From: Triglochin maritima
Lineage: Eukaryota; Streptophyta; Magnoliopsida; Alismatales; Juncaginaceae
DNA length: 64,000 nucleotides
Reading direction: 5' to 3'
Assembly: GCA_963682175.1 (NCBI GenBank)
Contig: OY821771.1
Span: 38,894,201 to 38,958,200 of the forward strand
Below, in pieces: positions 29,986 through 63,374 of this stretch; the stretch's first letter is position 1, and every line of letters begins with the position of its first letter. The translations under genes and the position numbers were made by a program. The notes under the pieces are model-generated. The model worked only from the letters and a program-made list of their open reading frames with translations. It had not been told where the DNA came from and did no database searches.

Positions 29986-30649
29986 CTCATTGTAGGATCC
30001 TAATCCTAATTGGGTTTTATTGTTGATTTAGGAGGAGTTTAGGGGAGATAGAGTTGGACGGCTGGGATTGGAAGGAGATGGATGAGGGGCTTGGATGATT
30101 TGGATGAGATGAGTGGTGGAGATGGTTGGATGGAATGGATGGTTGAGATGAGAGGAAGAAGAGATATTTAGAGGTGAGTCTCTCCCTCTCTTCTCTCACG
30201 TCTCTCCCCCTCTTCTCTCACGTCTCTCTCTCTCTCCCTCCCCTCAGTTGGTGATCGCCGGCGTGGAGGCGCGGGGTTTCGGCGAGATTAAGGGCGTTGG
30301 TGGTTTGAGGTGAGTGTTACTCTCTCGGTTCGTTTCCGGCTCATTTTGGTTTCTCTCTCTTGACCTCACTCGGGTTTCGGTGGTTGTGGTTGGCTTGTGG
30401 AGGTTGCCGGAGGTAGTGTGGTGTTGTGGATCGTCGAGGAGACGATTGATCGTCGTTTGGACGCGAGGTTCGTCGACGGATCGTGATTTGGGGAGACGTG
30501 CTCGTGGAGGCGTCGTCGTGGTTCTTCAAAGGTCTCTTCAGACCTTCCGGTATGTCAAGCTCGCTAACTTAATTACCGTGAGTATTTGGAAGTCGACGGT
30601 AGGCCGTTCGGCTCGTCGCAAGTAAATGTGCAGCAGATTTCACTGCCTG

Positions 30650-31260
30650 ATCGGTCGACCGGTTGGTGCAAATGGTCGACCGTTCGTGAAGAAAATACGG
30701 GTTCTGCCTGAAATCGGTCGAACGATGTCTTGTGGCGGTCGACCGATTGTGCATAAAAGGCAAACCTGGTGAGTTTCGGTCGACCGGGTCCCCTTTGCCG
30801 GTCGACCGTGTGCACTGTCTTAAGTCGGTTGGGAGCGTTGACCATCTAAACGGTCGACCGCTCTTTGACTTTGTTCGACCGTGACTTAAGTGAGTTTGGG
30901 GGTCGGTTCGACCGAATGTGGGTTCGGTCGACCGGACCTGCATGTTGAGCGTGAGGAACGCTCTGGATGAAATCGGTCGACCGAGGAGGTCTCGGCGTTC
31001 GACCGGTTTCGGGACGCGAGAGAGGGATTATTCCCTGTGGGATCGGTCGACCGAAGGATACTCGGAGTTCGACCGATCGGACGTTTTGTTCGTTGAACCT
31101 GGGAGTTGACAATCTAAACGGTCGACCGTCCCGTGATTTTGGTTCGACCGAACGAGTGTGGTTTTGGGAATCGGTCGACCGATGGAGTGCCGGTCGAGGT
31201 GGATTGCCCTGTATTTGCTTGATTCGGTCGACCATGACTTTTGGTTCGGTCGACCATTTG
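30650..31260 (+). repeat. Array of paired CGGTCGACCG palindromes in LTR A
   Basis: About 20 copies of GGTCGACC or one-base variants (GTTCGACC, GGTCGAAC). Most form pairs whose site starts are 21-22 bp apart (13-14 nt between 8-mers); counted examples near 30652, 30715, 30778, 30850, 30974, 31045, 31118 and 31225. The sequence between paired sites is not conserved. Confidence 0.85.
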
Positions 31261-31369
31261 TGTCCAGTTTTGCACTATGAAGGTGTTGTTGTCGTGGTCG
31301 TCCGTGTGGGGCGAGTTGTGGTGCCGATGTTCTTCCGACAGGTGTGCTAGGGTGCACGAGTGTTGCGGT

Positions 31370-31860
31370 GGTTGGTTGAAATAGACCTGAAGCCCCGTAA
31401 CGGTGTGAGAGCTTGGGATTGGCTGAAAAAGGCCTGAGGCCCAGCTTAGAATTGTGGTGTTGCGGCGGTTGGTTGAAAGAGACCTGGAGCCCCGTGACTG
31501 TGTGAGAGCTGCGGTTGGTTGAAAATAGACCTGGAGCTCAGTTAGTCTGTGCGGGTTGGTTGAAAAAGACCTGGAGCTCCGTAGTGCGTTCGGGTTGGCT
31601 GAAAAAGGCCTGGAGCCTGAGCAGGGACCACGTGTAGGGGTTGGTTGAAAAAGACCTGGAGCCCTTAGACGTTTGGGTTGGTTGAAAATAGACCTGGAGC
31701 CCTTGGTCGTGTCGTGGTAGCTGCGGTTGGTTGAAAAAGACCTGGAGCCCAGCTTGGCGACGAGTGTGCGGTACGGTGGTTGGTTGAGATTAGACCTGGA
31801 GCCCCGTGACCGTGGTGCGTGATGTGGTTGGGTGAAAGAGCCCTGGAGCCCAGCCGTTTA
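31370..31860 (+). repeat. Minisatellite in LTR A
   Basis: About eleven copies of GGTTGGTTGAAAAAGACC followed by TGGAGCCC, separated by variable spacers, giving a period of roughly 37-53 bp. It occupies the same relative place as unrelated minisatellites in LTR B and LTR C. Confidence 0.85.
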
Positions 31861-32125
31861 TTTGAGATGCTTTTCTTGTTTACTAGAATTGCATGCTAGG
31901 GCGTCTTTCAGTTCATGTATTTAGAGTTTGGCATACGGGGTTTCCTTCTGGAAACTCAGGCATTGTTGCATGTTTACTTTCAGGCCGTGGTCGGCGATAG
32001 GGGGTGGTGACCGAGGAGAGGAGCACCGCTACCGGATCCAGCTTTCTCTCTGTTGAGGTTGAGTGATTACTGTTTCCATTTGTATAGTCTTTTGATGTAA
32101 TCACAACTTTTGAAATACTCTGATG

Positions 32126-32167
<42 letters not shown>

Positions 32168-32279
32168 GTTGGTGCACCTGTGTTCAGTATTTGCGTAATA
32201 TCCTCTGTTGATTGTGTGTTATTAAAATTTTAAATTTTCCACTGTGTTGAGGATGTTACACTCATGTTTTTCTTCTATC

Positions 32280-33395
32280 TTACTTATAAAAAACGCTCCA
32301 TCATCTCCTTTTATACCTTCCAAATAATTCAACTTTCTTGAAACCATATAATTTCCTTCCTGACTTCAACAAATGTCGTATACTCCGCTTCCGTCGTAGA
32401 CGACAATGTAGTATTTTGAAGAACAAATCTCTAACTTACTGGTCATCCACCTAGAGTACTGAACACATATCCTATTGTGGACATTTGTTTATCCAGATCA
32501 TCAACACTATTCGAATCCATGTAACCCTTCACCTGCCTTTGTGCTCCATCTCTGGTGTATTCAAGCTAACATCAATGGTTCCTTTCAGGTACATCAACAA
32601 CCACTTCAACGCTTCACAATGCTCATTTCCTGGATTTTCCATATAATGACTCACCATGCTAACTACATGTGAAATGTCTGACATAGTGCAGATCAAAGCA
32701 TACATAATGGACTCGACTGCACTAGCATATGAAACTCTATCCATATCTCTCATTTCTTTTTCAGTAGAGGGGTTGTACTTCATGGAGAACTTGAAGTGAG
32801 CACTTATAGGTGTGGCAACCTGCTTAGCATTCTCGAGATTGTATCTTTCGAGAATGCTCCGGATATAACTCCTTTGAGTGAGCAAAATTTCACCTCTTTC
32901 GGTATCCCTCGTGAACTCCATAGCGAGAATTTTCTTCGCACTCCCGAGGTATTTCATCTCAAACTCGCCACGAAATTTCAATTTGAGATCATCTATACGC
33001 TTCATCTCATTTGCCGCGATCAACATATCATCCACATACAAGAGCAAGAATACATATGACCCATCTTTGAGACTCCGCAAGTAAACACAACTATCATAGT
33101 CGCAACGTACAATATCATTCTCTAACATAAATGTATCAAACTTTTTGTACCATTGCCTCGGCGACTGCTTCAACCCGTAGAGAGACTACTTTAGCTTGCA
33201 TACTTGACTTTCTTTGTCTTGTGTAATGAACTCATCCGGCTGCTTCATATAGATCTCCCCCTCTATGTGCTCGCGAAGAAATGTCGTTTTTACGTCCATT
33301 TGCTCCAGCTCTATGTCATCAATTTCCACCATGGAAAACAATAGTCTAACGGAGGTATGCTTTACAATGGGTGAGAAGATCTCGTTGTAATCCAC
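32280..33395 (-). pseudogene. Copia reverse transcriptase / RNase H fragment
   Basis: Contains the RT catalytic box in LLLYVDDMLIAA, the core YGLKQSPRQWYKKF, and a downstream connection domain (YLKGTIDVSL). An in-frame stop (TAG) at about 33187-33189 interrupts the CKLK-SLYGLKQ junction, and the RNase H part (STIGYVFSTLGG) is out of frame, so the gene is broken. Confidence 0.85.
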
Positions 33396-33531
33396 CCCTT
33401 CCTTTTGAGCATATCATTTTACCACCAATCTCGTCTTGTATTTTCACTCCTCATTTGGAGTTGACCATTTTTTTCTTTCTTTCTGGAGATCCACTTGCAC
33501 CCAATTGCGCGCTTTCCTCTTGGAAGCTCTG

Positions 33532-34051
33532 TTAACTCCAAGTATCATGCTTATGAAGAGACTTCATCTCTTCGGTCATGGTCATCAGCCACTTATTGTT
33601 GTCCTCCTGCTCAACAGTGTCCTTGAATGTGGAAGGGTCCCTATATTCAGTTACAAGTGCAAACGCAATGCTAGCTTCATAATGATCATACCTCTGTGGT
33701 GCCCCAGTGATCATCCTTTGTCTCCCGTAAGCCATACTCTCTTGTTCAGGCTTTTCCTCTACACGTGAGTCATTTTTTTCCTGTTGAACTTCCTTATTTG
33801 ATTCATCATCTGAAGTTGTGACCCTTACTTCAGTTTCGTCCCCTTGCACGGGACCATATTGCTGCTCTTTCTCCTCATAGTCTTTGAGTAAACTCGTCTC
33901 ATCAAATACTACATTACTCTTCAACAATACTTTTTTGTCCATTGGATACCAAATCTTATATCTTTTAATTGATCTATCGTAACCAAGGAAAATACATTCT
34001 TTCAATTTCGAATTCAGTTTCGAACGTTGTGTCTCATCAACCAATGCATAA
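33532..34051 (-). pseudogene. Copia integrase C-terminus and RT N-terminus
   Basis: Reads ECIFLGYDRSIKRYKIWYP, then a charged linker, then a YDHYEASIAFALVTEYRDPSTF region leading to NKWLMTMTEEMKSLHKHDTW, the usual start of Copia RT. Its upstream continuation (FGCKAYALVDETQ) is interrupted exactly by the CACTA element. Confidence 0.8.
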
Positions 34052-34069
34052 GCTCACTACAGGAGAACG

Positions 34070-34505
34070 AGTCTTCACCGATGGATCCTAACCTTCGGTG
34101 TATAGTGGTGTCCGTCGGTGACACATTACATTGATAGATATTTCTCCGTCGGTGTTATGTCGGTCGGTGTACATATACACCGACGGATGCACCGACGGAG
34201 AGTTCCCGTCGAACTTGTTTTTGGTGCCAATTTTCCTGCCCATTTTTGTGTGTGATTTCCTCGAAAGGGAGACCACCAACGGATATACACCGACGGATTC
34301 ATCTGTCGGTCTTAAACACCGATGGATGAATCCGTCAGTGTACATACACCGACCCATAAGTAATAGTAATTTTATTCGACAAAAGTTAATATACACCGAC
34401 GGATAGGAACCGTCGATGTATATCACATCGACAAACACCGACGGATATCCATCAGTGAATTAAAAATAAACTTTAATTACACCGACGGTTATCCGTCGGT
34501 GTAAA
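34070..34505. repeat. Left subterminal repeats of the CACTA element
   Basis: At least a dozen copies of the 10-bp core TCCGTCGGTG or its complement with small variations (for example near 34148, 34178, 34192, 34287 and 34470). Such arrays bind the smaller transposon-encoded protein in En/Spm elements. Confidence 0.85.
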
Positions 34506-34979
34506 CTCTTTCCAGAATTTGAAAAGAGCCCATTGGCTCTTCCTGAATTCCAATTTTCCATGTTCAAAGAAAATGAAATGTGTTCCATTCATTCACAATA
34601 ACACAACCATTCATTCATTCATTCATTAAGTCGAAACCGTTCATCCATTCATTAAGTCGATACCAAATAATCCATGTTAGAAAATATTCATTCATTCAAA
34701 AAATAGTTTGATTTACAGATGAGTTTGATTAAGTCATTCATTATATAGATGATAAAAGTAACAAAATAAATATGACTAAACCGTCAAACCTCCCGTCCCG
34801 GCTCTGCCTACAGGCACGTGATCGTCATCTTATCTTGGTGGTGACAGCGGTGTGCAAAGAGGGGTCACATCATAATCCTGCACATTACAAAAATTATGTA
34901 TTGATGAAGTATTGCATATAAACCACTAAATACGACAATTTAACTAAAGAACATGTATATTACCTCGCTCGTGAAACCT

Positions 34980-36205
34980 GCCTTCTCGAGGAGAAAGTTC
35001 ATTTGGATCTGCATCTTGCTGAGTACGGATTGTGTTGTCTTCAACGTATCTTGCGTTGTCTACAGTGTATCTTGCGTCATCGCGAGCTCACTGCTAACGC
35101 GCTTCAACTCTACAGCTGCCTCGTCATTCCGATCCACATCCGCTTTGGCATTGCGTTCCGCTCTGCTTGGTATCCCACGAGGCATGTACATATCAGCAGG
35201 TGTGACGTAGCTGGAATACATACGAACTCGTTCATGTCTGTCACCCAACACTGTGTCAACTGGATCATCAATAGCGACAGAGGTGATAGAGGCTTGAGAT
35301 ATTAGATTTTAACCAATCAAATAAAATAGGTATTAGATTTTATAAAAAAATAAATCAAATGAATCATATTTACACTAAAAAATTAACCAATTACCATCTT
35401 CTCCTTATGTCGCACAACAGACTTTGTACCATACATATGTGGTATAATGAGATTCGCCCGGTTTTTCCTATTGATCTCACTCTTTTTCTGCATTCAAAAT
35501 TAAACCACAAGGTTAGATTTCAAATAATTTGCATAACATTAAAATTAAAATAAATAAAATATACCTGAAAAACGTCGTTGGCCCAATAATCTAAAAGAGT
35601 GGAGCAATCCTGAACAGATATGCTTTGTGGTTGTCGGGCCATCCGCTCCTCTCAAGTATGTGCCAGCTCCACCTACTTTTTGTAGATGTCAAATTTGTAT
35701 TCCTTCCACTTCTTGTTTAGAGACCTCATGACCTTGTCTATAAATCCCTCAAGAACCGTCCAATGTGCCCGTAAAACAACATTAGTACATAATTAAATGA
35801 AATAGATAATTAATAAAAAAGTTACGATGAGATGAAATGTTACCAAAATTTGTTCACATGCCACGTCCTTGTCCTTCTTTGGCACCAGTCTACATAACGC
35901 GGGGGAAGTATTTGTGACCTCCTCGCAAGTGACCCAATGAAGTTCTGGAAATTCTCGACCACGGGTCCTCTTGGTACCCCCTCTGGTGGGAAATCAATCG
36001 GAGATTGGTCTTTCTTCAACCATTCTTCCAAACACTAAGCGGGACCGCGTCCCCTACTCCTACTAGTGTTGGTTTCACCTGCAGAAGGTGAAGGCTGAAT
36101 CTCATCTACGAGAGCCTCTTCATCAGACTCCTGCGATTCTGTACTTCGACGATGTACAAATGTGTCATCTTTGTCATCCTCACGAGTGCTACGTCGTCAA
36201 GCCAT
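34980..36205 (-). pseudogene. Ptta/En/Spm-type (Transposase_24-like) protein remnant
   Basis: Minus-strand fragments read GETNTSRSRGRGP and EEWLKKDQSPIDFPPEGVPR near the N-terminus, then a Trp-rich stretch (LLDYWANDVFQ), then KSEINRKNRANLIIPHMYG-TKS, the signature of this family (consensus KKNKxNRxKxxxxHTxGSKS). The end has MPRGIPSRAERNAKADVD. In-frame stops and probable introns break it. In CACTA elements this is the partner of the TNP2 transposase. Confidence 0.65.
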
Positions 36206-36273
36206 ATCTGAATTAAAGAACATAACAATTTATAAGCTCACTGTCGTTATTGTTCAAGAGAACACAAGTTTTC

Positions 36274-38932: not shown

Positions 38933-38955
38933 GATTCTAATAATATAACACAAAA

Positions 38956-40045
38956 AATTGTTATCCAAAATCGATTCCAAAATCCAAATCGAATCCAAAC
39001 TAAAATCCAAAATCCAAACTTCAATCAAAATTTATTTGAAATTCTAACTAAATTTTGGCAGAACCCCCTTATCTTTTCGATACCAATTTTTTTCATAAAA
39101 CTTGTATTGACAAGAAAATATGTTCACTTTTGACAAGCATCACAACATCGTTAATTCATCAAACTTAAATCATACAATCCAATCCTAAATCCTAAAGTCA
39201 ATCACAAATCCTAAATCAAATCCTAAATCCTCAAAAGGATCTACTTCAAATCACAAATTTCCAACCAACTTCCTCACGGTCAAAATGGTCTTCACCGGTG
39301 TCTACTCAGAATATCACATTTAATCACTTCATTAACAAAGCCCAAATTTAGCTCCAATAAAATTCCTTTCCACTACCGAACCACAAAACCTAATCACTCC
39401 AAACCAGAAAGCAAGCACTAACCTTTACAAATAATCAATCCAACTAAAGTAAAAGCCAATCCATGTCAATAAAAGTCAAGCAATCTAACACAATCAACAA
39501 CAAAATTGTTATCCAAATCGATTACAAAATCTAAATCAAATCCAAACTTGAATCCAAAATCCATACTTCAATCAAAATTTATTTGAAATTTTAACTAAAT
39601 TTTTGCAGAACACCTCTTATATTTTTTATACCAATTTTTTCATAAAACCTGTATTAAAAAGAAAATATGTTCACTTTTCAAAGACAAACATCACTACATC
39701 GTTAATTCATCAAACTTAAACCATACAATCCAATCTTAAATCCTAAAGTCAATCGCAAATCCTAAATCAAATCCTAATTCCTCAAAAGGATCTACTTCGA
39801 ATCACAAATTTGCAACCTTCCTTACGGTCAAAATGGTCTTCACCGGTGTCTACTTAGAATATCACATTTAATCACTTCATTAACAAAGCCCAAATTTAGT
39901 TCCAATTAAATTCCTTTCCACTACCGACCACAAAACCTAATCACTCCAAACCAAAAAGCAAGCACTAACCTTTATAAATAACCAATCCAACTAAAGTAAA
40001 AGTCAATCCATGTCAATAAAATTCAACGCAATCTAACACAATCAA
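38956..40045. repeat. Tandem duplication of about 545 bp inside the CACTA element
   Basis: Two copies, 38956-39497 and 39502-40045 approximately, both starting attgttatccaaa and sharing ccaatttttt-cataaaac, cggtcaaaatggtcttcacc and tccatgtcaataaa. They are close to 95 percent alike by eye. A run of AT-rich catacaa/taatca short repeats follows to 40550. Confidence 0.85.
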
Positions 40046-40960: not shown

Positions 40961-41004
40961 GAAGTGAAATGGAAGAGTCGTCTAGGTCGGGTTCCTAATA
41001 AAGA

Positions 41005-41360: not shown

Positions 41361-41378
41361 ATATTTGTAGTAGTGGCT

Positions 41379-41720
41379 TTGCATCCAAATATTCTCGGCC
41401 TTGAATAATCACATGGCTCACCCATCTACACTTCCTAAGGAGTCTTTAATTTAAGTGCTGATGATGGTGAGGTATTTACCAGATAGCAAGTCAGATCAAT
41501 TGCCTCAGTCCAGAAATCCTTAGACATATTCGCATGTAGCATCATGCTTCTAGTCCATTCACACAGAGTCATGTTCATCGTTTCAGCTACCAGTTCTGCT
41601 CTGGACTTTGCAGTGTAGTGAATAATGTCTCGTGATGTCTTCTTCCTCACAGAAACTAGTGAACTCCTATGAGGTGTATTCACCTCCATTACCCGTCCTC
41701 AAGTAAACGGGTTTTTCCGT
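41379..41720 (-). pseudogene. Copia integrase fragment
   Basis: Minus-strand text AELVAETMNMTLCEWTRSML-type followed by DFWTEAIDLTCYLVNTSPSS, the C-terminal part of a Copia integrase core. Stops and frameshifts occur on both sides, and 41720-42240 is degraded integrase/GAG-pre-integrase sequence. Confidence 0.8.
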
Positions 41721-42241
41721 ACTTTTCACTACCTGAGCCTTCCATGCTTTAAACTTCTCAAACACATCAGATTTATTTTTCAGAAAATAAACTTATACCT
41801 TCCTTGAGAAATCATCGATGAATGTGACGAAATATTCGGCTGCACCTTTTGACTGAACTGATGCCGTCTCCAGACGTCTGAGTGCACATACTCTAATATG
41901 CTTCTCGTCTTGTGGATAGCCGTCTTGAACTAAATCTTATGATGTTTCCCAAAGACAATATTTGAAAAAAAAAATCCAATTTTCAACTCTTAACACCCTT
42001 TAGCAGGCCTTGTTTGTGTAACTCACACACACTTTTCTTACATATGACCAAGCCTTATCTTCGTCGGGTTGTGCAACGCTTGCTGCACCCTTTCTTGTTA
42101 TTGCATTCCCCTGCATCCAGTACAAATTGCCCACTTTGGTTCGTTTTATTACTGTCATCAATCCATGAGTGACCTTCACATTTTCGTCCCCACCGGACCA
42201 TCTTCACCCGAGAGTCTCAACTCTCTTAGAGATATCAGGTT

Positions 42242-42481
42242 CTACTTCAACTCCAGAACATGATGCACTCCCGTAAATGTTCGAATGCACCCATTGAACA
42301 TCTTAAACTGTATAGAACCGATTCCGACAGTAGTGCATGGTGCATCGTTGTCCATAACAACGATTCCTCCTTTTAGTGGTTTATAAGAGGTAAACCACTT
42401 TCTAATTGGGCACATGTGATATGATGCTCCTCTATCCAAAATCCATCCATTCGATGATTTGTCAATATCTATAGCGTACAT
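42242..42481 (-). pseudogene. Copia protease domain with altered active site
   Basis: Reads WILDRGASYHMCPIRKWFTS, where functional elements have D-S-G or D-T-G. The catalytic triplet is DRG here, which should abolish protease activity even apart from the frame breaks. Confidence 0.8.
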
Positions 42482-42502
42482 TGTTAAGACGTCAACTTTG
42501 TC

Positions 42503-43290
42503 CTATTCCTCCACCACGCTGGCAGAATCAAACCCAACGGGTTTGCCTTTCCCCTTCTGTGGTGCCTCCTTGAAGGCTCTACAGTCACGCTTCATGTGAC
42601 TCGTCTTCTTGCAGAAGAAACATTCAAAGGATCTCCCCTTTGATTTAGACCTGCCCCCTGTTGTTTCCACTTTGTTACCCATCTTGCCCCTTCCATTCGG
42701 TGAGACGATCAATCCTTCACCCTTATCAGAAGATATACTACCCAAATTCTTCCTTGCATCAAAAAAGATCATCGTGCCCTTGACCTCTTCTAACACCAGC
42801 GAATCATTCTCATATATGATCGTGTTCACCAAATTCTCAAACGAGTCGGGTAGGAACGTTAACAACAACATTGCTAGGTGAGTCAAATCTACGATAAGCT
42901 TGTTGAACACCGATAGGTGATCAACAAATGATGTGTTCTCCTTCATCCAAAGTGTGTACAACTGACGCTTCAGATTCAATTTGTCTCAAGCTTTTCTTCA
43001 TAAACTTGTCATCCAGAAGTTTCTAATATTCAATCATTGTCATCGCTGATTCCTCGAATAGAAGATCATCAGAAAGACACAATTCGATGATCCCAAATGC
43101 CTGATGATTCATCATCTCTCACTTTTCATCAGTCATCTTCGATCCTATTGCTTTGTCCTCACCACCCAAAGTGTTGAGCGGTCCGTCCGTTTGAGACAAC
43201 AACGCACGTACCCTCCATTGCCAGGTGAAAAAGTTGTCTTTTCGGTGAATTTCTGCACACGAAAATTTCTTGCATCCTCCGCCATGTCTA
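42503..43290 (-). pseudogene. Copia gag remnant with zinc knuckle
   Basis: The N-terminus starts at about 43286 (MAEDARNFRVQKF) and breaks frame before WQWRVRALLSQTD. The C-terminal half (42979-42503) is a longer open segment with the CCHC knuckle CFFCKKTSHMKRDC and a Lys/Gly-rich tail. Together they cover the gag region directly downstream of the primer site. Confidence 0.82.
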
Positions 43291-43442
43291 GCAACAAACC
43301 TGGCTCTAATACCAGCTGTTGGAAGAGATTCTAACAATGTTACTACTACACGACAGGTTACATGCACCAGTAGAATATACAAATATTGAATTTGCGGAAT
43401 ATAAACAAAACTTTTATCTCCCCCAAAATTAATAGCAACAAA

Positions 43443-44660: not shown

Positions 44661-45458
44661 ACAACACACACACACAAGATGAAAGACACATAATAGACAA
44701 ACGCACACACCTGAAATAACCACGACACACACGATTTACAAGGTTCGGCAATGTACCTACGTCATTGTGGGAGTCTTCTACGGGTTTCCCTTCCTTTTTC
44801 CACTTCTCCAATAAGAGAAGAAACCAAAATTACAAGGGTTTGGAGGCAATGTGTCCTTTAAAACTCTCAAGAACTTTCTAACTCTTATCTCTCAAAAGGA
44901 AATAATAATGATGTGTTTTGTACAAGAAAATGGTGAAAAAACCTTTAAATACTAGACTCAAAACCGTACAGAAAAACATGCAAAACGTGAGCGAAAGTCA
45001 ACTGGTACCGTTACTAGGAACGTTTCATGATAATTTCGGTTGAACGATGTCCAACATTGTTTGACCACTCCACAGTTATCTTCAGCTCTCCGCAACTTTC
45101 CGGTTGACAGTTCCTGAACTCCAAAAAAACCCTGAAAAAATCGATTGCACGCTGTCCAACACCCTCGACCGTTTTTCACTTTTGAAAGTGTCTTCGGTCG
45201 AACGATATCCAACACCGGTCGACAGTTTTTCACATCTGAAAGCTCCTGAACAAATCGGTTTTAACAGTGTCCACCGGTCGACTGTTTTCCCCTGCTTTTC
45301 TTGCATTAACAAATTTAAACCAATTCCAACAATAGCAGACTTCAATTTGACTAAAACTTATAATTATACCATTAGTTGTTAACGACTGTAGCCTCAATAT
45401 CACCTAACTGGGATCAAACTTCATTTGATTTTGTCTTTATATAAGAAGCATCAAAACA

Positions 45459-47213: not shown

Positions 47214-50200
47214 TATTCAATGATAACTGTTGATACGTTCCAATTGTTTGATAACGTGCCTTTTGGTAAGAGTTCGTCAGATATCTTATCAACAAAACAG
47301 TACTACAGATAATAATGTTTCTGTCAACAAAGAGTGACAAAGTATTATAATTTTGACCCCCAACGGTTGATTAATATAATTTAAGTAATTCCTGAACCTA
47401 GATGGACTAACACAAACCAATCTTCTGAAAATCCCTAAAAAAGAGGGAGAACAAATGCCAATTGACCTTGTTTTCTTCAGAAATCGATTTAGAATGAAAG
47501 CATAAAATGAATGGCTTTGAGTACGAGGAATGTGGCTTAATTTGAAATGAAAAAAAAGACGTAAGAGTACCAGGAAATTGATTTAAATGTTGCAAAATTA
47601 GTATGTATTAGAGATCCAGAATTACATCTTATATATTTTTATCTAGTAAAAGAGATAAAAGAAATGATTATTTAGCACCCAAAAAAAAATATAGCAGTAA
47701 AAGCACAATAAGTGGCAATGAACTTTGCTAGGGTGAAAGGGCGACCGTCAGTGTAATAACGTCATTAGATTAGTCCAGCAAATTCTGAAAAACAGTCCAA
47801 TTCTTATACATATGTTTTGCGCCTAAATTAGTCTACACACCTACAGTCACAAAACCGTTAATAGTCGGGTTTCAATGGTTAGAGGAGTTCTTTTTAAAAA
47901 TCTTTTCAATCATAGTATAGCACATTTTCTAGCAATATCTACTCATCAACATTAATAGCTAGGGGTTAAAGTAGTCACAAGATATGCATTTGCTTAGATG
48001 TATATATAGTAACAAATATGATATTCGTGGGGCCAAGGGCATGTATGATAATATTCGATGCACATTTGCATCTAATTTATGGATTTAAAGCTTTTTTCAC
48101 ACATTCTACTCACCATGTGTATCACATTTCACATGAAACTTGATACACCATATGAATATATACAAAATCAAACTTCTTGTTTCTCAGTTTTGTGGTGTGA
48201 CCTATAGGATGATCTAAGCTATATTGACAGTAGTATTAAACACTTAATATCACAAACTATAAACGATATCTAGCTACACATTATAGTTACCCAATTAGCA
48301 TAGATGTCTCATTCACTCGAACTAAACACGATCCATTTAGTGATGTGAAGACATCATTTGTGTCTATTCCTTTCCTCATTATATTAAGAATATATTCAAA
48401 GTAGAAATGTCACATTTGTATTATATATTCATTTCTTGATCTCTTAAGCTAATTATAAATATGTAACTTAACTCAAGTCACATTATGCACATTATAATTT
48501 TGCTTTATCAATGAGCTCACTAATATCATAACTCAAATTAAGATAGACAATGATAATCTTTTGACTAGCTATATTTTCCAGCACAAGTCGAGTTCAACCA
48601 ACTATTGCTTTTATCACTATGCTCATTGATAAATTTTGACAATAATCAAATTGAACACTTCTTATGTGAAAATACATAAGTCTCATATCTTAGGATTCAA
48701 GACACAGTGAAAACATTAATGACACATAACACAAATCTATAATGTTCACTTGCTATGTCTATTCAATATATAAAAATAACAATTTTCCTCTTTTATATAC
48801 TCATGTCGTCAATTTTTATAGAACTATAATAATCGATAACCAACACGATAATCTTATCTCGGTAATTAATTTTCCATGTTAATTACCATGATTGTGAATA
48901 ACTTTTGATTTATGTAAATCATTATCTTTTAGAGCTTTACAGTTAAGGACCAAGAGTCTCTTCTTCAACACTTCCGAAATGCGAATACATTAATCAAGGA
49001 ACAAAATATTTGCACATCTAATTCATAATAATTGACATATAAAAGTAAAACTTTTATAACACATTCCTTTCAATATTGGCATGCATATCTTTTCCTTTTT
49101 GATGTCACCTACAAAGACCAAATAAATATTAGTATGAGAGCACCAAAATTTGATTGGGTTGCTTGTGCATTGCTTTAAAACATTGTGATTTACTATTTTA
49201 GGGTTCTTTTAGTTGCTGAGAACTTTCCGAGCTTCTTTTCTTTTCCTTTTTTTAACTTCCTTAACGAAAGAATTGGGTGAATTTCTCATCTTCCCTTTGT
49301 TTTTCTCTCTTTCTGCATATAGACTATAAATGCATGAACTAACTTTAAGGTTGAATTAACTAACACTGAAAATACATGAACAATCAATACAAATACACTA
49401 TAAAAGCATGAACTAACTTTAAAGTTAAATAAACAGTCAATAAAAATACATTATAAAAGGATAAACTTGCAATAAAAATAGTCATTATGAAGTGAAGGTC
49501 ATGAATTGTGAGCATTAGTATGTGGTGAAGGACCAATTTCTTGTGAAACACCTAACATAAATTAGAAATTGAAATAAAAACAAGATTTCTAAAAAAATCA
49601 ACACAAGAATGACCGAAATACATAGAAATACAAGGCTTTCATTTTATTTCTCTTTTTGTTTCTATTTCCTTGACTTTAGTTTCATTTACTTTCTCTTTTC
49701 CATTTACTTCCGTTCCTTTACTTTAATCCCCTCCACATTGGCTGACGTTGTAGATGATTTTTTTTCCTTGGACTTGGAGTTCTCTGAGATTCGATCTGAC
49801 TCAATCCTAAACTAAATGATGGCATAGGCACTGCAAGAGAAATAGTCTTTCATTAGAAGATCAAATTTAACTGTTAACTGAATCTATATCTTATTAAAAA
49901 ATATGTACAATATCAAAGGTACAACAAAATAAGCTAAAATTTTGTCAAATAATTTGAAAGATGTGGATTACATACAACGAGTTCTCATTGTATGTGGATT
50001 ACATACAACGGTAATTAAACTATAATTAAAATACATTGTTTGAAGCTTAAAATACACAAATAAGTATTTAAATTACAATACTTAGAATACACTTAGATAT
50101 ACTCAAACTTCGCCTTTTCCTTCTGCAATTCCCAAAACAACCAAATTTCAACCCGAACTTTCAAAAAAAGGAAAGTAAATAGAGCCCCTAAAACAAAAAC

Positions 50201-51760: not shown

Positions 51761-51849
51761 TTGATTACTTGTTGGTACTCTCTGTGTTAGTCTGTTGTGT
51801 ACTTGTAGTAGGATTAAATAACACTATTGTTTAGGGGAATCCATGGTTG

Positions 51850-51891
51850 TGTTGGACTATATATATATATATATATATATATAGTCCAACA
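51850..51891. repeat. Perfect 42-bp palindrome with AT core
   Basis: TGTTGGACTAT, an (AT)n core, then ATAGTCCAACA: the whole string is its own reverse complement. It lies about 90 bp after the stop codon of proline-rich copy 2, probably in the 3' UTR, where it could form a stem. Confidence 0.8.
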
Positions 51892-52494: not shown

Positions 52495-52502
52495 TTAATC
52501 AA

Positions 52503-54097: not shown

Positions 54098-54689
54098 ACA
54101 AAGAGGGGAAAGAGAGGAAGAGTGTAAGAATGAAGAGTTGAATACCCTATTACAATAGAATGACTGAAATAATTACCGGTTGCATATATATATTTACAGG
54201 GTACGCACTCAAAAACTCTAAACCGGTTGAATTATTAGGAGCTCAAACATCTGTTGCATACAACTAGGTTGCTAGGCACCATTCCATATCTCATTTGCTT
54301 CTATATTTGTAACATCCTCGAACAACGGACAAATTTAAACTTTTATAATCAAATGGACATACAGATTAAAACCATTAAGAGTGGGGACATTACTCATAAA
54401 AATTCCCAAATATCACTGGTGCACCATATTACATAAGAGTTGTCAAAAGTATGATTACATCTGGGAACAGAAAGATACAAAGATAAGGAAACATGTAATC
54501 ATAACGACCTAAAGCAGACTTGACGATCCAGTCCCAAAGTGCAATCTCCCTCGGTCACCACCCGTCGGAACCTACCGCGGTCCTGAAAATAAACATAACA
54601 ACAATGCCTGAGTTTCCATAAGGAAACCCGTATGACAAGCTCACATATATGCCTTATCATACTAGTATAGCATGGCATGATACAAAGCA

Positions 54690-55260
54690 ATAAAACAACA
54701 CTGGCCTCACGGTGTAAAACCAAACATCAGTCCCGCAATCGTTACCGCTGTCACACCGGCCTCACGGTCTACAATCGTCACCGCTGTCACACAGGCCACA
54801 CGGTCCACAACATCGTCGCCGCCACACAGGCCGCACGGTCCACAAACATTGGGTCTCCGTGGACACCTACCGTAGGCACATACGGTCTAGCAGACAGTAC
54901 GCAACACATCCCCACAAACAACTACACAAGCGAATGGGATCAGTGAGGAGGCGTTCGCACTTCCGTGCAAGTAGAATCAGATCTGAAAACATCATGGTCC
55001 ACCACCACACCAACGGAGTCGTCGCTCAGGTCGGTCCATCACCGCCGCCACACAGACCGCACAATACCTCACTCAATAGGTGCACAATCGAGCTACCTGC
55101 CGGAAATCATCATTGGCAGTCCATTGTCGTACCACACAGGTCACGCACGATCCTCCCTATCGCCGCACAGGGGCCCTCCCGTTGCCACACAGGCTGCACG
55201 GTCTCGTGCAATCACTGTTTATCAAGGCCAGTCAAACTTATCCGCCACACAGAGGGCTAG
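54690..55260. repeat. Minisatellite in LTR B
   Basis: About nine degenerate copies of a unit containing gccacacaggccgcacggtc, best preserved at 54735-54850 and weaker to 55255. Unrelated in sequence to the minisatellites of LTR A and C. Confidence 0.75.
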
Positions 55261-55649
55261 ACAATTGACAGAACCGAACCAAAGTCTGCGAGGTCATCGA
55301 GCTCCACGTGCAGACACCAACTCCGTCGCTATAAAAGCAGGGCAGCAGCCTCTGTAGCCATCCAGGTCGGTAGTCACTTCACCCAACGGCAGTTGCGTTC
55401 CCACTAAAAGCAATGGGATCCGCAATCCCTCAGGCTGCTACTCTAATGTGAGAGTCAAGGCATAAACTACGTCACCCTCTTTAATACAGAGGTGACACGT
55501 CCCAAGTATACACACTCTTCCACACAGCGGTCCCTAAGCAGACACGAACAACGTACCCACCGTCACCTCCCGGCTCACGCTCTATGCAAGGACACGGGTT
55601 TTCGTGGACAGAGTTGACAATTCACTAGGACCAGGATTCAGTTCTGGGC

Positions 55650-56215
55650 TCAAACGGTCGACCGGAAAAGGTATACCGGTCGACCGCTCCCCCAAGGGAA
55701 TCGGTCGACCAAACGCCTACAACTGTTGAACTCTATGCTCAAAACCTAATTCCTAACGGTCGAACGAAAGTCTAAAACCGGTCATCCAAACGTGGTCAAA
55801 ATCCGAAGTCTGGTCAAAATCATACAAATCTATTCGGTCGACCGACTCAGGGGTCCCGGTCGACCGAAAGCTACCAGGGGTAACCTAGTAGTCTAGGTCA
55901 TCTACCGGTCGAACAAGATACAACAATCGATCGAACAACATACTAAACAATTAAGTTCACTTAAGTTTCGGTCGTACCAAAGGTCAGGAGCGGTCGACCG
56001 TTTGGATGGTCAACGTCTGGTCCAAGCGAAACACGAAGCAACGGTCGAACGGCTCAGGGGTCCCGGTCGACCGAAAACTCACAGACAATCCTCCGACCCA
56101 CCAGCACATGCACAATCGGTCGACCGCCACAAGGCGTCGTTCGACCGGTGTTGGTTAAAGTCGAGCAAAACACTAACCGGTAGACCGCCTGAAGGCACCG
56201 GTCGACCATTGGTCG
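55650..56215. repeat. Array of paired CGGTCGACCG palindromes in LTR B
   Basis: Pairs with 21-22 bp between site starts near 55655, 55758, 55836, 56042, 56116 and 56179, plus single or decayed sites. The strings aggggtcccggtcgaccg at 55848 and 56056 show that some pairs arose by local duplication. Confidence 0.85.
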
Positions 56216-57080
56216 ACAGCCAAGGATTTTATGTCGTTTCTTGCCGCTGGTGAGGTCTCCGACCTCCCGCGACCGACCACAACTCCACCCAACCTGGGTG
56301 AGTAACAAAGGCATCTAATGCAAGAACTTGGCATACCTCTACTCGCGAAGAACGACGAACTTCACCAGAACTCACCGCCCTTCTTTGCCTCTGATAGCCA
56401 CCTCCTCGCACCGAGCTCCCTATCGGCCGCAACTCCTCACACACAATCACCACCGGTACTCCTTATCGCAACTCTTCTTGCTTGCGTCCACCACCACCGA
56501 AGATGAGAGGAGAAAGGAGTGGAAATGAGAGAGGATGAAGAAGAGAAAGATGGAAACGTGAGAAGTGAGGAAGAGATGAAGATGTTGCTTCCTCCAACAA
56601 AACCCCACCAACTGCAGCCCATACCTCCCTCACCTCAACCCATGCCTCCACCATCACATCAAACACCACCACCATGCACCTACACCACCCTACCACCCCA
56701 CCATCACGTCTTCTCCTTTCCCGTGCAAACCTTCTCCAATTAGCACCCTAAACACCCACTAAACACCATTAGTCTCTAAGCAAAGTTAGGGTCTTTACAA
56801 TATTTGTTTTGGTCGATGCGTTATCAATTTCTAATACGACATAATTACATGATACGAAAAAACACAGTGTTAGGGGATATAGATTAGAAAATTGTAACAT
56901 GAAAAAAAAATAGTTTGGAGTTTAATTATAACACATTTAATAACGAAGGAGTTCAGAGTTAATTAAGGGGTAGACATTAGCACAATGGAGACACGACAAC
57001 TAATCATGTACTTGGGACTTGGGTACAAAGCTAAGAGCGATGCACGACTACCATGCAGAAATACATGAGTATCATTTACG

Positions 57081-57082
<2 letters not shown>

Positions 57083-57141
<59 letters not shown>
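57083..57141. repeat. (TA)n microsatellite
   Basis: About 59 bp of uninterrupted TA dinucleotides. Similar tracts occur at 13007-13042, 13230-13272 and 32130-32168. Confidence 0.95.
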
Positions 57142-57143
<2 letters not shown>

Positions 57144-57825
57144 CGTGTTATTTACCAACAATTAAGTTACAATATTTAGAAACTAAAATTACATTCAATT
57201 TCATAAACAAAAAATTCCGACCAAACTTGAACTTTCGAGAAATGTATAGATGTGAGAAAGGTACATATATAATCTAACTTTTGAATTTGATGTGTAGGAA
57301 TTAGAAGCTTCAATGATTTGAAAACATTTTATGAAAATGGGTGATCAAACTTAAATGGATTGGTGGGATTGAGTAAGGATCCACCAATACGAGTTAGAAA
57401 TGAGTAAGCATATATTTACACAGCACGATATACGACACGTTGGCCCTAACTTGTAAAACATTCCTCACATCCCACATGTTGGATGGAGAATCAACATGCA
57501 TTCTTTTGGATTTATGACAATTCACAACTGTTGAAAAAATCATATCTTCTTTCATCATATATAACATTTTCCGTGGAAAGCATTCTTAAAAGAAGAAGAA
57601 GAAAAATCATTATATTCCCTCTAACAAGTCAAATTCTTTATCTAGAAAATACTTTAGTGGACATTATATAAGGCGTATATCTTCTTTTCACGGCTTGGGA
57701 CCATCCCACATTGATTTAGCAAGTATCTTACTTTGTTGATGGTGCAATGGCCAAACCCACGTGGATGTGTAAGACCAAATCACAATCCAATATATATCCA
57801 ACGTGGATTTCCGAAAGAGAACAAG

Positions 57826-57952
57826 AAGTGTGCATGGCCATGCTAAGTCCACACTTGGAATGCGCACGACATGTTTTCACCATGGTCTGACCCATGCAAG
57901 CCACATTACCACTATGGGCGAACCATTTTCCCCAACATCTCACATTCTAAGC
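57826..57952 (+). promoter_or_regulatory. Conserved promoter block of IMA-like copy 3
   Basis: Homologous to 26900-27030 over about 127 bp, including caccatggtctgacccatg, caagccac, atgggcgaacca and cccaacatctcacattctaa. A G-box CCACGTGG is at about 57758-57765. The block ends about 214 bp before the start codon, nearly the same distance as in copy 1. TATA-like tataaatag is at about 58049. Confidence 0.75.
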
Positions 57953-58165
57953 CATATCTGTGGAATATGACCCTTATAAAGCTAAAGCATATATGTTTGT
58001 TCTGCATAATGATTCTCTCAGCACTAAGCTTCGCTCATGGATTTTGTTGTATAAATAGCATATAGTTTTGGTGACCCATTTAATTAATTAGGTCTCTGGA
58101 GCAAGTCTTAACTTTTCCTTTGTTTTTTTTCTTGCTAGAGTAACTCCTCTCTCGTAGTAGATCGA

Positions 58166-58255
58166 ATGGCGTTCCCAAATGCTAATCTTATGGTGTTTAG
58201 GAGTAATGGCGACGACGACGATGACGATTGTGGGGATGTGGCTGTTGCAGCATGA
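58166..58255 (+). CDS. IRON MAN/FEP-like acidic peptide, copy 3 (diverged)
   Basis: A 29-residue ORF: MAFPNANLMVFRSNG, then DDDDDDCGDVAVAA and TGA. It shares FRSNG/IRSNG plus the Asp run with copy 2, and the GDVA-AA frame of the tail. Key tail residues have changed: GPDVAPAA has become CGDVAVAA, with the conserved Pro of APAA replaced by Val and a Cys gained. Its promoter block is well conserved with copy 1, so it is probably expressed, but binding to BTS-type ligases (which depends on the C-terminus in known IMA peptides) may be altered. Six Asp codons (mostly GAC) form the acidic core. Confidence 0.72.
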   Translation: MAFPNANLMVFRSNGDDDDDDCGDVAVAA

Positions 58256-58770
58256 GAGTTAGACGTACGTAGTTATGCTAATAAGTTTATTGTTGTTGCG
58301 AGGATGTAAACTCGACTGATGTTAAAAGAGATACGTCTAAAATGTTGTTTTGGTAATGTTGCAATACAGGTATAATCTTAGCTTGATTTTGATCCGAAAT
58401 ATTCATTATGATGTAACAATTATTAAATATATAACACAACATGATTAGTAAAACCAACTTAGAACAAAAGTCTCAGGTAAAAGCTGCAAACAATAAATAT
58501 CTAACCAAAAAAAATCGCTTGCCTGCCAATGAAAACCACTTATTATATCTTTATATGCATATCCTTCCTTTAGTATTTGTACGCATGCCACTACAGATCT
58601 CATACTTGTGTTCATGCGTCATTACATTTACATTAACCACTTTTTCAGAGTATCAAATCGTAATTTTCATCATCAATGTTAAACTAAGACCTTAAAGTCG
58701 ATCGTCTCAATATACACGAATTTAATCTATTTAAAATAAATAATAGAATAAATAACTCATGATATAAGAT
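58256..58770. other. 3' flank of IMA-like copy 3
   Basis: Probable 3' UTR, then AT-rich sequence. No third proline-rich gene was found here. Confidence 0.4.
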
Positions 58771-59506
58771 CAGGGGCAGACCTACGTTGAGGGCAAGTGG
58801 GACAATTGCCCCACCCAGATTTGTCTCAATCATTGAAAAAAATTAACCAAAACTCTAGCCCAAACATGTTGAAATATGTTGATTAAGGCATTTTACTGAA
58901 ATATGTTGATATCTATTTGAGTCTAGTGATTGTATTTATTTTTTGATGGTTTTTTTGGTTTAAGAAAGAAGGAATTAGTGCTCCATTACATATTTTGTTT
59001 ATTGTTAGTTGAAAATTAGTGTTGATTACATTTTTTGTTTCTTGGATCTTATATCTTAGAATACGTGATTTTTATGAGGTTGTCTTGCTCTTGGAGGTAG
59101 ATTGCTTAATTGTTAGATTTATGATCGAGAATCAAGATTTATTCTTGTTTGGATGAATTTGTTGTTAGTAAATCATTGAAATTGAGAAACCTTGTGTTAT
59201 GTTGTTGGTGATGGTGACTTTAATTTTATTAAAATGGAGTTGATGTTGTTGTTGGTGGTGATTTTATATTTAGAAAAGTTCGGAATTGAAGCGAGTTATG
59301 TGTTTGGGTATTGGAATTTGAAATTTGCGAATGTTTTGTTGTTTTGATATTGAAATTCAGAAATACGTGATTTTATGAGGCGGTATTGGTTTTAGGTGTG
59401 GATTGTTTAATTGTGAGATTTGTGAAGCTTAAAAAAATCCAACATGTGCAAAAATAATTTGTATGTTGTATGTCCCACCCACGAAATCATCCTAGATCCA
59501 CCCCGG
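58771..59506. mobile_element. Probable hAT-type non-autonomous element
   Basis: Starts CAGGGGCAGACCTACGTTGAGGG and ends catcctagatccaccccgg, an imperfect inverted pair of the CAGGGGCGGATCTAGG type known from hAT elements. Flanks tataagat and tataaagg match only partly (first five bases). The interior is T-rich, with no transposase domain. Confidence 0.55.
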
Positions 59507-60702
59507 TATAAAGGGATTTACTATATATTATAAATTAAGCGCAAATCGTTGATAATATTAAAGTCAAATTATAATGTAACAACAAGTTGCTTTAACACAA
59601 TATGGAATTCTATCATCAACAAGAACAAATCCAAAGTAACAGAATATTATAGGCATAAATATGTAGGTTTAGTAATTGGGTGAGAATAAATATCAGAGTT
59701 TTGCAATGACACAAGGACAAATACGAAAATAATAATGACATAGAAATTAAATTGATGTTTCCAGGTGAGATGCAAGAAAGAGATTGTAAGTTAAATATAA
59801 ATTCGTAAGTGGCAATTGAGGATAAAAATTCAATTTATATTTTCAAATTTATGACCTATAGCTTTTAGGGTATTAAGAAGGACTTGATTATTGCAATCTT
59901 TTAATAAGACTTTAGTGGTTTGTCCAAAAAACAAAATTTAGTGTATTCTTCTGTTGTGATAACAAGAAGTTAAAATTTCAATTACTAGTAAATTAAATTG
60001 CGATAACACTCTAAAATCAAATCGAACTGATATCAATTCCAATAAATTAGTTTTATTACAATAAGCAACCCGAAATTATACCTCATTTATTTGCATACAT
60101 TCAACTATTCAAGTCTCAGATTTGTCTACCCAAGAGAGGTACGTGCTTTACGTACAAGTACTGTTGCTAAAACTCCACTAATATGGGGATAAAAATCATG
60201 AAATATAAAGACACGACTCATCTCTAATTCCAGTTTTCTCGGATCTTTATCACCCACCAAACCCCTCTGCCAACGATGTCAAACATAATATGTTATACTG
60301 TAGATTATCTAAAACTTTGGAAGTATGAATGATAAATTAATGTACCATAAGTCCATATGGGCACATCAACTATATATTTTTAGCTGAACAAGGCTAACTG
60401 GTCCATATATGGACGGCCATCTGGATGCACACATGTAAGAGTCAACCTCTAACATGACAGCATATGGACAAACGTCAATAAGCCATACCGTTACGTAACA
60501 TTTCGCTTTCCGTTTTGCACAGATGTACCTAGCTAATTAAGTTGGGTTGGCTATCTACCAATGTAAACGAAAATTTAACAAAAAGCTAGCTTTGACTATC
60601 CAATTAAAAAGTGGTTTTATCTATATATCATCAATTTTCCAATTAATGATCTGATAGACTAATATTAACACTAACTACGTTTCCGAATTTACTAGATATA
60701 AT
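59507..60702. other. Intergenic region, no gene seen
   Basis: AT-rich; nothing recognisable on either strand. Confidence 0.4.
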
Positions 60703-61261
60703 TGTTAAATCCCAAACCCTAATTAGGAGGTTAAGTGGGTTTAGTGGGTAGGATTAGGTGGGGTTTGACCTTGGAAGGTATGGAGTGGTTGGGGGATGGA
60801 AGGTATGGAGGAGGTATGGCCCGCCTTGATGGGTTAAGATGGATTTTGGTTTAATTAGAGGATGCACTCTTCTTTCTCTTCTATTCACTCAAACCTTTCT
60901 CTCCCTCACCACAGCTCTTTCTCTCCCTCGGCGGTCGACGATCGGAGGAAGTGTGACCCGAGACGCAAGGAGGCACGGTGGAGTAAGTGATACACGACGT
61001 GTCGGAGGATCGTGCGCGACTGGAGGCTGGACGGCATTGAGACGGATCACAAAAGGAATGTCAAGTTCTTTAGTTTTGTCACACAAGACGTGTGAGGGGT
61101 TGCGCTTGTCGCCGGAGGTCGGATACCTCGTCGGTGGCAAGGTGCAGCAAGGTTGCTGCAGAGTAATGATCGACCGAGGTGGTGGTTTGGTCGACCAGTG
61201 GTAGTGTAAATGCTAGATTCTGTCCCACACCGGTCGAACGATGCCTTTGGACGGTCGACCG

Positions 61262-62705
61262 TGTTGACTTTTTGTCTTAATCTATGTTTTGATGATTTAA
61301 TCAACTTAATCTTAATTATAATCAATGTAAAGTAGCACACATTATGCATGACATATACATTGTATTGTGCTAACTTCTACAGGTGACCAAGACACAATGA
61401 AGAAAGGAATTAAAGTCAAGACATGTAATCAAGATATTGAAGACATGTAATTTGTATTTCTTTTGAGTCTTAAGAACTTTGTGTATTTGAGCATACAAGA
61501 GTTAAAAATAACTTAAACACACATTAGGTTCCTTATAGAAGTCACACACAAAATCTCATAACATTTAGACTTCAATAGGTCACCCAAACTTAGACCGGAA
61601 AACACTAAAACCCAAACCTGGACTGTTTGAGCCAAATCGGTCGACCGAACCAGTTCTCAGTTCGACTGATTGGATCAGTTAATCAGTTAGCCTTTAATGT
61701 CAAACCGATCGACCGTTGCGTACATTTTGTTCGACCGTTTACACGTGTCTTGTTACCATTAAACTTATCGTATTATACCAACGGTCGTATTTGTATAAAC
61801 CTAACAAAACCCCAAAATACTTTGGCCACACGTCGACCTTTACCAAGACCCCGGTCGACCGTAACGTTTTCTTGAACCCCAGAGTTCCTGATATTTTCGG
61901 TCGACCAGTCCAACTTTTTGTTCAATCGAACGTAAAACCCCATAGTGACTGTTAGATTTCGGTCGACCGTTCCACCCTTTAGTTTGACCGTTAACTTAAG
62001 TTATAGCCTATTTGGTTCGACCGTTCTTGTTTCGGTACGAACGTTTTCACAGTTTTATGGAAACGATCGACCGTTGATCCCGAGTCGGTCGACCGTTTGT
62101 GTCCCAAACTATGACCTGCACTTACCTATTTTTGTGTTTCTTACCTATACTTATCACAACGGCTATAACCATTTTATAGCTTATAAATAAAGGTTCCCCA
62201 ACCTAATTTACACAACTCTCCTACTACTATTTGCCTCCTACATTAGAGAGATAAATCCAAACACTCCAAACCTTTAAATCCACATTTTAGTCATCAACTC
62301 TTTTGTTTGTCAAGTGTGCTCAAGTTTAGAGAGTGTGTTCCACTCATTTGTGGTGTAAATAAGCAAGGATTTCGGTGAAAGCCCGAAGTGTTCCCTCTCG
62401 ATTTGTGGGAGGAAGAAATCAATCTAGTGAGGGTTGTTCGTAAAGTTTGTGGTGTAAAAGGCTTAATCTCGGCCCAGAACGAGATTGATAGTGAAGACGT
62501 AGGCGGAGCTCGAGGGAGATCGAGTGGAGCTTGCAAAAGAGGAAGTAGGCGGGAGGTCGAACCCTATAAAAATCACCAGGACATTTTTGTGGTTTGCGAT
62601 ATTTTCTTTACTTACTTTTGTTTGATTATTTCGCTGCATCTATGATTAAGCAAGTAGGGAATTCGTTTAAAAGTGATTAGAATTAGAGGTCATTACAATC
62701 CTACA
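61262..62705 (+). mobile_element. Solo LTR D, a different family nested in LTR C
   Basis: Starts TGTTGACTTTTTGTCTTAAT and ends GGTCATTACAATCCTACA; flanks GACCG (61257-61261) and GACTG (62706-62710) are a target duplication with one mismatch. Removing it restores the LTR C array, where LTR A reads gaccgattgtgca. A TATA-like cttataaataaagg is at about 62179. Its ends are unlike the A-B-C family, yet it carries its own GGTCGACC pairs at 61638-62100. Confidence 0.75.
61638..62100 (+). repeat. Array of paired GGTCGACC motifs in LTR D
   Basis: Pairs at about 61639/61660, 61707/61729, 61959/61980 and 62065/62087 have starts 21-22 bp apart, plus decayed or single sites near 61853, 61901 and 62015. 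The paired spacing matches that of the unrelated LTR family around it. Confidence 0.82.
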
Positions 62706-62744
62706 GACTGGTTGTGCACGTTCAGCAGGAGGAAGAAATCTCTA

Positions 62745-63055
62745 TTATTTTCGGTCGGATGGGACCCATTTGTCGTTCGACCATTGCCTTGTTCTTTAAG
62801 TATGTTCGGGCCTAGACCATCTAAACGATCGACCGCCTTTGACATTTTGTTCGACCAATAACTTAAGTGTACAACCTTAGTGGTCGACCGACTCATATGC
62901 TTGTTCGACTAGTGGAGGATTTGTGAAACAAATGCAGGCTCTGTTATTTTTGGTCGGACGGAACCTTTTTTCCGTTCGACCGTTGTCTCGATTATTTAAA
63001 GGTTTTTCCTAGCCTGCAAATGGTCGACCACTTTGTCATTTTTGGCCGACCGTTG
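62745..63055 (+). repeat. Array of paired GGTCGACC motifs in LTR C
   Basis: Five pairs near 62752, 62826, 62882, 62953 and 63022, each with 21-22 bp between site starts. The first sites often drift (ggtcggat, gatcgacc) while the spacing stays. Confidence 0.83.
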
Positions 63056-63374
63056 GTGCCCAGTATTAGTTTTTCAAGTTTTCTTTGTGGTGTCACCTTT
63101 GTCCATGGAAACCAGTGTCCTCGCTTCGTGCGTGTGTCGGGAGGTGACGGTGGGTGCGGTAATCGTGCATGCCCAGGGACCGCAAGGTGGAAAGGTGTGG
63201 ATACTTGATATACGTGCATGTGGTTAATTTTAGGCAGTTGATGGCTTTTTTGCATTTGCATTGACCCACCCTATGTAGTAGAACTGTGGGATCGCGGATC
63301 CCTGTGTATTTGCATTGCATGGTACCTAGCTCCATGGAGTGGGATGTCCGCCCAGGCTCCGACTGGCGGGAAGG

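Follow-up and report, generated by a model that had tools for sequence, protein, structure and literature searches.

The 64-kb stretch of the Triglochin maritima genome analyzed here, referred to below as the window (C3:38,894,201-38,958,200, in a genome of 1.063 Gb and 167 contigs), contains several retrotransposon long terminal repeats (LTRs) that are unrelated to one another and that nevertheless carry arrays of the same eight-base palindrome, GGTCGACC, largely arranged in pairs. The question raised by this locus is what keeps such pairs at nearly the same distance in different LTRs. The arrays are probably cis-regulatory LTR sites for cooperative binding of a sequence-specific protein, most likely a host protein, that activates transcription, and we give this reading a probability of roughly 0.6.

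The arrays are a real, strong and quantifiable regularity. The window contains 31 exact copies of GGTCGACC, 22 of which read CGGTCGACCG, and sites with at most one mismatch number 68, whereas 30 first-order Markov sequences contain 9.0 on average and 14 at most. Near-palindrome pairs spaced by 21-22 bp number 21, in agreement with the roughly 20 counted in a preliminary description of this DNA, and are absent from all 30 Markov sequences; the other pairs with at most one mismatch are one each at 20, 25 and 11 bp. Genome-wide, there are 439,179 copies of GGTCGACC and 5,558 of a control word, the reversed GGTCGACC, which is likewise palindromic and of equal composition. Pairs with a start distance of 12-42 bp number 136,583, compared with 1 for the control, and pairs spaced by exactly 21 bp number 19,314, compared with 0; such genome-wide counts take in all copies of abundant families and are not independent events. 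A local sample of twenty 10-kb stretches was taken from C1:40,001-481,000; the stretches were picked as known carriers of the sites and are not a density sample. Together with the window they comprise 264 kb, 287 exact sites and 38 clusters, 29 of which have at least three sites and 18 at least eight exact sites. In these 264 kb, the ungapped CGGTC-GACCG occurs 248 times and versions with 1-8 bases between the half-sites 0-7 times each, which confines the enrichment to the ungapped palindrome. A C occupies position -1 in 92% of exact sites, and the CGG-CCG signature is thus present.

The distances between neighboring sites are restricted on the short side. In the 264 kb, no exact pairs are found at 8-17 bp and 101 are found at 18-25 bp (including 49 at 22 bp, 16 at 21 bp, 10 at 19 bp and 9 at 20 bp), and the four at 26-39 bp all lie at 31-33 bp. 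Some groups of arrays favor a spacing of 18-20 bp. The spacing of 21-22 bp, originally described as fixed, is therefore the dominant class of a range that spans 18-25 bp, and distances beyond this range likewise match helical turns. Genome-wide, just 170 pairs are 12-17 bp apart, compared with the 19,314 at 21 bp. A site thus keeps others from lying within 17 bp of it, which is the behavior expected of a bound protein.

Beyond the first class, local distances peak near 42, 52, 64, 73, 85, 95, 105, 115, 125, 136 and 147 bp. The best period for all arrays is 10.45 bp (R 0.49; periods of 5-30 bp scanned over distances of 18-300 bp), and with one array per family it is 10.46 bp (R 0.486). When adjacent gaps were jittered by at most 5 bp (2000 runs; one array per family; 294 distances of 26-300 bp), the mean R was 0.053 and the maximum 0.163, none of the 2000 runs reaching the observed 0.486, and bootstrapping over families placed the period at 10.41-10.47 bp (scan of 9.5-11.5 bp). 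The R of exact sites is at least 0.48 in six of the eight family representatives, and with half-damaged sites included 26 of 29 arrays have p < 0.05 (Rayleigh, uncorrected, with the period taken from the same data). Genome-wide, pairs separated by 8 turns (82-85 bp; 23,210) exceed those separated by 8.5 turns (87-90 bp; 7,065) 3.3-fold, and pairs separated by 14 turns (145-148 bp; 27,178) exceed those separated by 14.5 turns (150-153 bp; 6,242) 4.4-fold. A layout of two pairs 42/43 bp apart (0/21-22/64/85) is common to the gypsy locus L010 and to L011, the array of which groups with copia arrays, and the spacers differ. Nucleosomal DNA has a period of roughly 10.2 bp; the array period matches free B-DNA and not nucleosomal DNA (both reference values being general background), and helical pitch can thus be read from raw genome sequence.

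Damage to the sites is polarized. The commonest one-base variants in the sample are GTTCGACC (41) and GGTCGAAC (35), all others occurring at most 15 times, and the commonest half-site change is G to T. Among variants with an exact partner at 20-22 bp, 34 local ones have their damaged half turned inward and 2 outward; the corresponding numbers in the window are 8 and 1, the exception being at 30906. Genome-wide at 21-22 bp, inward cases (31,547 + 31,367 = 62,914) exceed outward cases (1,818 + 1,875 = 3,693) 17-fold, and when both members are damaged the ratio is 238-fold (5,007 inward, 21 outward). Many of the outward cases share few spacers among the 100 matches listed, which suggests that few families supply them. 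This polarity indicates that the pair is the unit, and retention of the outer half-sites with dispensable inner ones is expected if neighbors hold each other on the DNA. A run of half-damaged GTTCGACC at L010:2620-2735, about 20-22 bp apart and in one orientation, looks as if each site leaned on its left neighbor. In pairwise alignments within seven groups (25 arrays; the pairs are not independent), site columns are conserved at 97.7% (5018/5138), spacers at 82.9% (18,980/22,899) and non-site CpGs at 84.8% (1699/2003); the 38 clusters were reduced to this set by omission of nine with fewer than three sites, the second LTRs 15 and 25, and arrays 6 and 27.

With the motifs masked, the 38 clusters form 12 groups at a threshold of at least 80 bits, and the carriers span Ty3/gypsy (L010 and L019) and Ty1/copia (L006/L007, L013/L014 and L021; RVT_2), no superfamily being assigned to groups V, U and Z. 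The preliminary description was accordingly right that the LTRs are unrelated and that a module is common to them. A comparison of 1266 bp shows the LTRs of L010 to be identical (the second is cut off by the end of the locus), and they have kept the array; the internal region of this element is a single gag-pol frame with RVT_1, RNase H and integrase H2C2, and a chromodomain match falls just under the Pfam cut-off. L019 has LTRs of 1.94 kb that are 98.4% alike, a target site duplication GTTTA and a gypsy-type integrase end, and L006/L007 is a 5.7-kb copia element with the primer site TGGTATCAGAG and an internal region of 4.0 kb of copia coding sequence. No extra reading frame is present in L010 or L006/L007, the two copies inspected that look autonomous. 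Of the copia LTRs, two were measured, and in both the array stops shortly before the TATA box, which starts 85 bp (L006/L007) and 62 bp (L021) past the start of the last site; a search of 1266 bp of L010 found no TATAWA.

In the model that we propose, a host protein would bind CGGTCGACCG as a dimer and keep any further dimer at least about 18 bp away. The functional unit would consist of two dimers separated by about two turns of the helix, with the partner-facing half-sites mattering least. Spacing at multiples of 10.46 bp would keep pairs and single sites in register on the same helical face and allow a larger complex to assemble along one side of the LTR. The same protein would serve several lineages, Ty3/gypsy and short Ty1/copia, most likely by activating their transcription. 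The idea that the helical spacing serves a cooperatively bound dimeric protein, already raised in the preliminary description, is supported at the level of sequence by phasing to 300 bp, exclusion below 18 bp and inward half-site damage. A host protein appears to be the simplest reader, because the gypsy and copia copies examined have no extra gene in common and neither L010 nor L006/L007 offers space for one. Activation is favored by the position of the array before the TATA box in two copia LTRs, by conservation of the sites and by their presence in a young copy.

Several observations weigh against this model. The LTR of the gypsy element L019 has TATA-like words at 141, 897-908 and 1833-1846, that is, before, inside and after its array (440-1067), and thus gives the array no clear place relative to the promoter. 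Exact-site phasing is weak in two of the eight representatives (R 0.13 in one of gypsy group X and 0.11 in one of gypsy group Y), and three of the 29 arrays (4, 21 and 36) are not significant even with half-damaged sites. Copies of abundant families dominate the genome-wide counts. Indels per substitution hardly differ inside (0.166) and outside (0.184) the arrays, being lower inside in groups X and V and higher in Z and U; depletion of indels as a sign of length selection is therefore not found overall, and these ratios do not demonstrate that spacer length is under selection at present.

The palindrome itself has been described before. CGG-CCG palindromic repeats in Sirevirus LTRs have been called Sirevirus-specific, and the repeated-motif consensus of a Vitis Sirevirus is identical to CGGTCGACCG (PMC2829016), contrary to the initial statement that no element of this kind was known. 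These motifs occur at least eight times per element, in a cluster that forms a CpG island and precedes the TATA box of the LTR, and the elements average 10.55 kb (PMC2829016). The present arrays share with them the CGG-CCG ends, the consensus, the clustering, a copy number of at least eight in 18 of the 38 clusters and, in two copia LTRs, the position before the TATA box, but differ in that their carriers include Ty3/gypsy (L010 and L019) and 5.7-kb Ty1/copia (L006/L007) elements, which do not fit the Sirevirus type; other carriers may include Sireviruses. No exclusion zone, two-turn pairs, register, polarity or gypsy carriers were found in the accessible part of that article, the words 'helical' and 'spacing' being confined in its main text to the reference list (PMC2829016). 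The maize Sirevirus palindromes (CACCGGACNNNGTCCGGTG) are likewise clustered in LTRs and of the CGG-CCG type, and they also occur in maize Helitrons, which is a precedent for spread beyond Sireviruses; however, the motif is longer and is interpreted through RNA structure, and no helical geometry was found in the accessible part of the source (PMC10760457). Thus, the palindromic word and some of its spread are already known, and the other lineages and the geometry are new here.

The open-licence literature searched yielded nothing on helical phasing in LTRs, on palindrome arrays in gypsy or short copia elements or on a named reader of Sirevirus-type palindromes, and nothing relevant on the LOB domain with CGG palindromes; LOB/LBD or AP2/DREB proteins are speculative candidates for the reader. 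Mobile elements with clustered short sites for a single protein are also known: in VANDAL/VANC anti-silencing, arrays of a short motif are read by the element-encoded VANC protein, and Tnt1 and Tto1 have tandem U3 enhancer boxes in their LTRs. These systems differ in their motifs and, for VANC, in the element-encoded reader, and we know of no sharing between gypsy and copia in either. Lambda repressor and MADS quartets exemplify stereospecific cooperative binding to two sites, with two dimers at whole helical turns that are stabilized by their partner; this likeness concerns the mechanism only, not family membership.

The same protein-bound geometry could instead belong to a host repressor or silencing factor that recognizes retrotransposons. 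Geometry is silent on the sign of the effect, and small RNAs are attracted to the palindrome regions of maize Sireviruses (PMC10760457, citing Bousios 2016); however, successful elements should shed silencing sites, whereas these are conserved and present in L010 with its identical LTRs, so that a repressor is rather unlikely. An action of the palindromes in the transcript, as hairpins, in packaging or dimerization or as small-RNA precursors, agrees with the secondary structure proposed for Sirevirus palindromes (PMC10760457) and with the finding that two array stretches of 301 nt have more stable folds than dinucleotide-shuffled sequences (z -4.26 and -2.67), but palindromes fold well for any reason. 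An RNA structure, moreover, predicts neither the 10.46-bp register, a turn of A-form RNA being about 11 bp, nor damage that is inward only, and is improbable. Complementarity is lacking in the spacers of paired sites (49, compared with 47.6 in the null; p 0.44; 32 spacer clusters), and hairpin-forming spacers thus give no signal. The length of small RNAs, which had been offered for the 21-22 bp spacing, is rejected as its cause, because it explains neither the peaks that recur at further whole turns nor the half-site polarity.

An element-encoded DNA-binding or anti-silencing protein would have the VANDAL/VANC arrays as a precedent, but is very improbable given that a further gene would not fit into L010 or L006/L007 and that no extra gene is common to the gypsy and copia copies examined. 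Least probable of all is a purely mutational origin, in which tandem duplication by whole turns (about 73 bp, a pair plus 51 bp) was spread by copying with no binding protein. Repeats of 22 + 51 bp are frequent in copia groups and indels are not depleted in the arrays, and spacers of sites 72-74 bp apart have a median identity of 33%, compared with 25% at control offsets, a faint signal of old duplication. Only 3 of these 61 spacers are at least 50% alike, so that the arrays are largely not copies of a 70-bp unit with aligning spacers, and tandem duplication is rejected on this comparison as a sufficient cause. The register is also present at 31, 42, 64, 85 and 105 bp, the sites are far better conserved than the spacers, and the polarity of half-damage is unexplained by duplication, the 238-fold ratio arguing against it.

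A further reading can be put forward tentatively, at less than even odds: a conserved plant DNA-binding protein forms a helically phased multimer, the gypsy and copia arrays evolved independently, and the protein also reads the Sirevirus CGG-CCG motif in grasses and grape. Dimer pairs two turns apart would then line up over hundreds of base pairs on a single face of the DNA, a single genome would carry one eight-base word as a site hundreds of thousands of times, and the protein would be one not yet known to act on transposons. Sirevirus palindromes have been known since 2010, and the geometry described here offers a precise probe for their reader, namely a 30-bp pair with a half-turn-shifted control. 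The occurrence of the module in gypsy as well as copia elements would make it a point of control common to plant retrotransposons.

In the window, the clusters found by site scan lie at 30653-31303, 45196-45283, 55656-56218, 61168-62094 and 62775-63051, and the array coordinates given earlier hold. The features are as follows (pairs and arrays 2, 4 and 5 by site scan; a strand is named where one was assigned).

29997..31850: LTR-like repeat of group V that carries array 1; 79-86% identity to L015:8246-10000
30653..31255: array 1, 13 exact GGTCGACC and half-damaged sites; R = 0.54 at 10.45 bp
30653..30681: pair, 21 bp
30716..30744: pair, 21 bp, one inward-damaged member
30778..30807: pair, 22 bp
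30852..30880: pair, 21 bp, one inward-damaged member
30906..30933: pair, 20 bp, one outward-damaged member (the sole exception in the window)
30975..31004: pair, 22 bp, one inward-damaged member
31045..31074: pair, 22 bp, one inward-damaged member
31120..31149: pair, 22 bp, one inward-damaged member
31226..31255: pair, 22 bp
45196..45283: array 2, degenerate, three one-mismatch sites, with a pair at 45196-45224 (21 bp)
54308..56360, minus strand: LTR sequence related to gypsy group X (L010, L008+L009, L022-L024), by homology
55656..56207: array 3, nine exact sites and, in addition, half-damaged sites; R = 0.59
55656..55685: pair, 22 bp
55836..55865: pair, 22 bp
56043..56072: pair, 22 bp, one inward-damaged member
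56118..56146: pair, 21 bp, one inward-damaged member
56179..56207: pair, 21 bp, one degenerate member
61168..62094: array 4, sparser, with pairs at 61168, 61232, 61707, 61831 and 62065 (21-22 bp)
61248..62700, minus strand: repeat of group U (L012), by homology
62775..63051: array 5, mostly degenerate, with pairs at 62827-62856 and 63022-63051 (22 bp)

The gaps in array 1, half-damaged sites included, are 21, 42, 21, 41, 22, 52, 21, 33, 20, 49, 22, 48, 22, 53, 22, 31, 53 and 22 bp. Array 2 lies next to a stretch with LTR homology (44668-44989), part of a broken Ty1/copia element between about 32,342 and 45,283 with homologous stretches at 32342-34054 and 41375-43400. Phasing is not significant in the main cluster of array 4 (61639-62094; R = 0.46, p 0.15), and homology to gypsy group X begins within array 5, at 63015.

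Other repeats were noted in the same sequences. A tandem repeat of GGTTGGTTGAAAAAGACCTGGAGC with a period of 39-47 adjoins array 1 in the group V repeat (31370-31750) and is also present in the matching L015. The dispersed repeat group Z is represented at 48110-49075, with the right end ...ACATTCCCTTCAA, and is also found in L016-L018, L019-L020, L022-L024 and L008-L009; its longer copies hold 7-9 sites at 18-25 bp, and through this group the motif may reach beyond classified elements. Minisatellite-like tandem stretches with a period near 22 bp (for example, TGTCTGTTCGGAATAAG), which are unrelated to GGTCGACC, occur in L006+L007 at 15150-17850 (C1:135150-137850) and at L005:4244-5265, and L022+L023+L024 contains, at 12165-19430 (C1:52165-59430), nested tandem duplications whose units, up to about 890 bp long, are 75-97% alike. 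Two direct repeats of 226-230 bp (TGTTAT...ATAACA; 87% alike, 5.4 kb apart) at 11387-17006 of the window are flanked on both outer sides by ATTCC and contain no GGTCGACC arrays, the whole resembling an LTR element. The open frames at 1870-3161 read like pieces of what we take to be a subtilisin-like protease (motif GTSMAAPHVAG).

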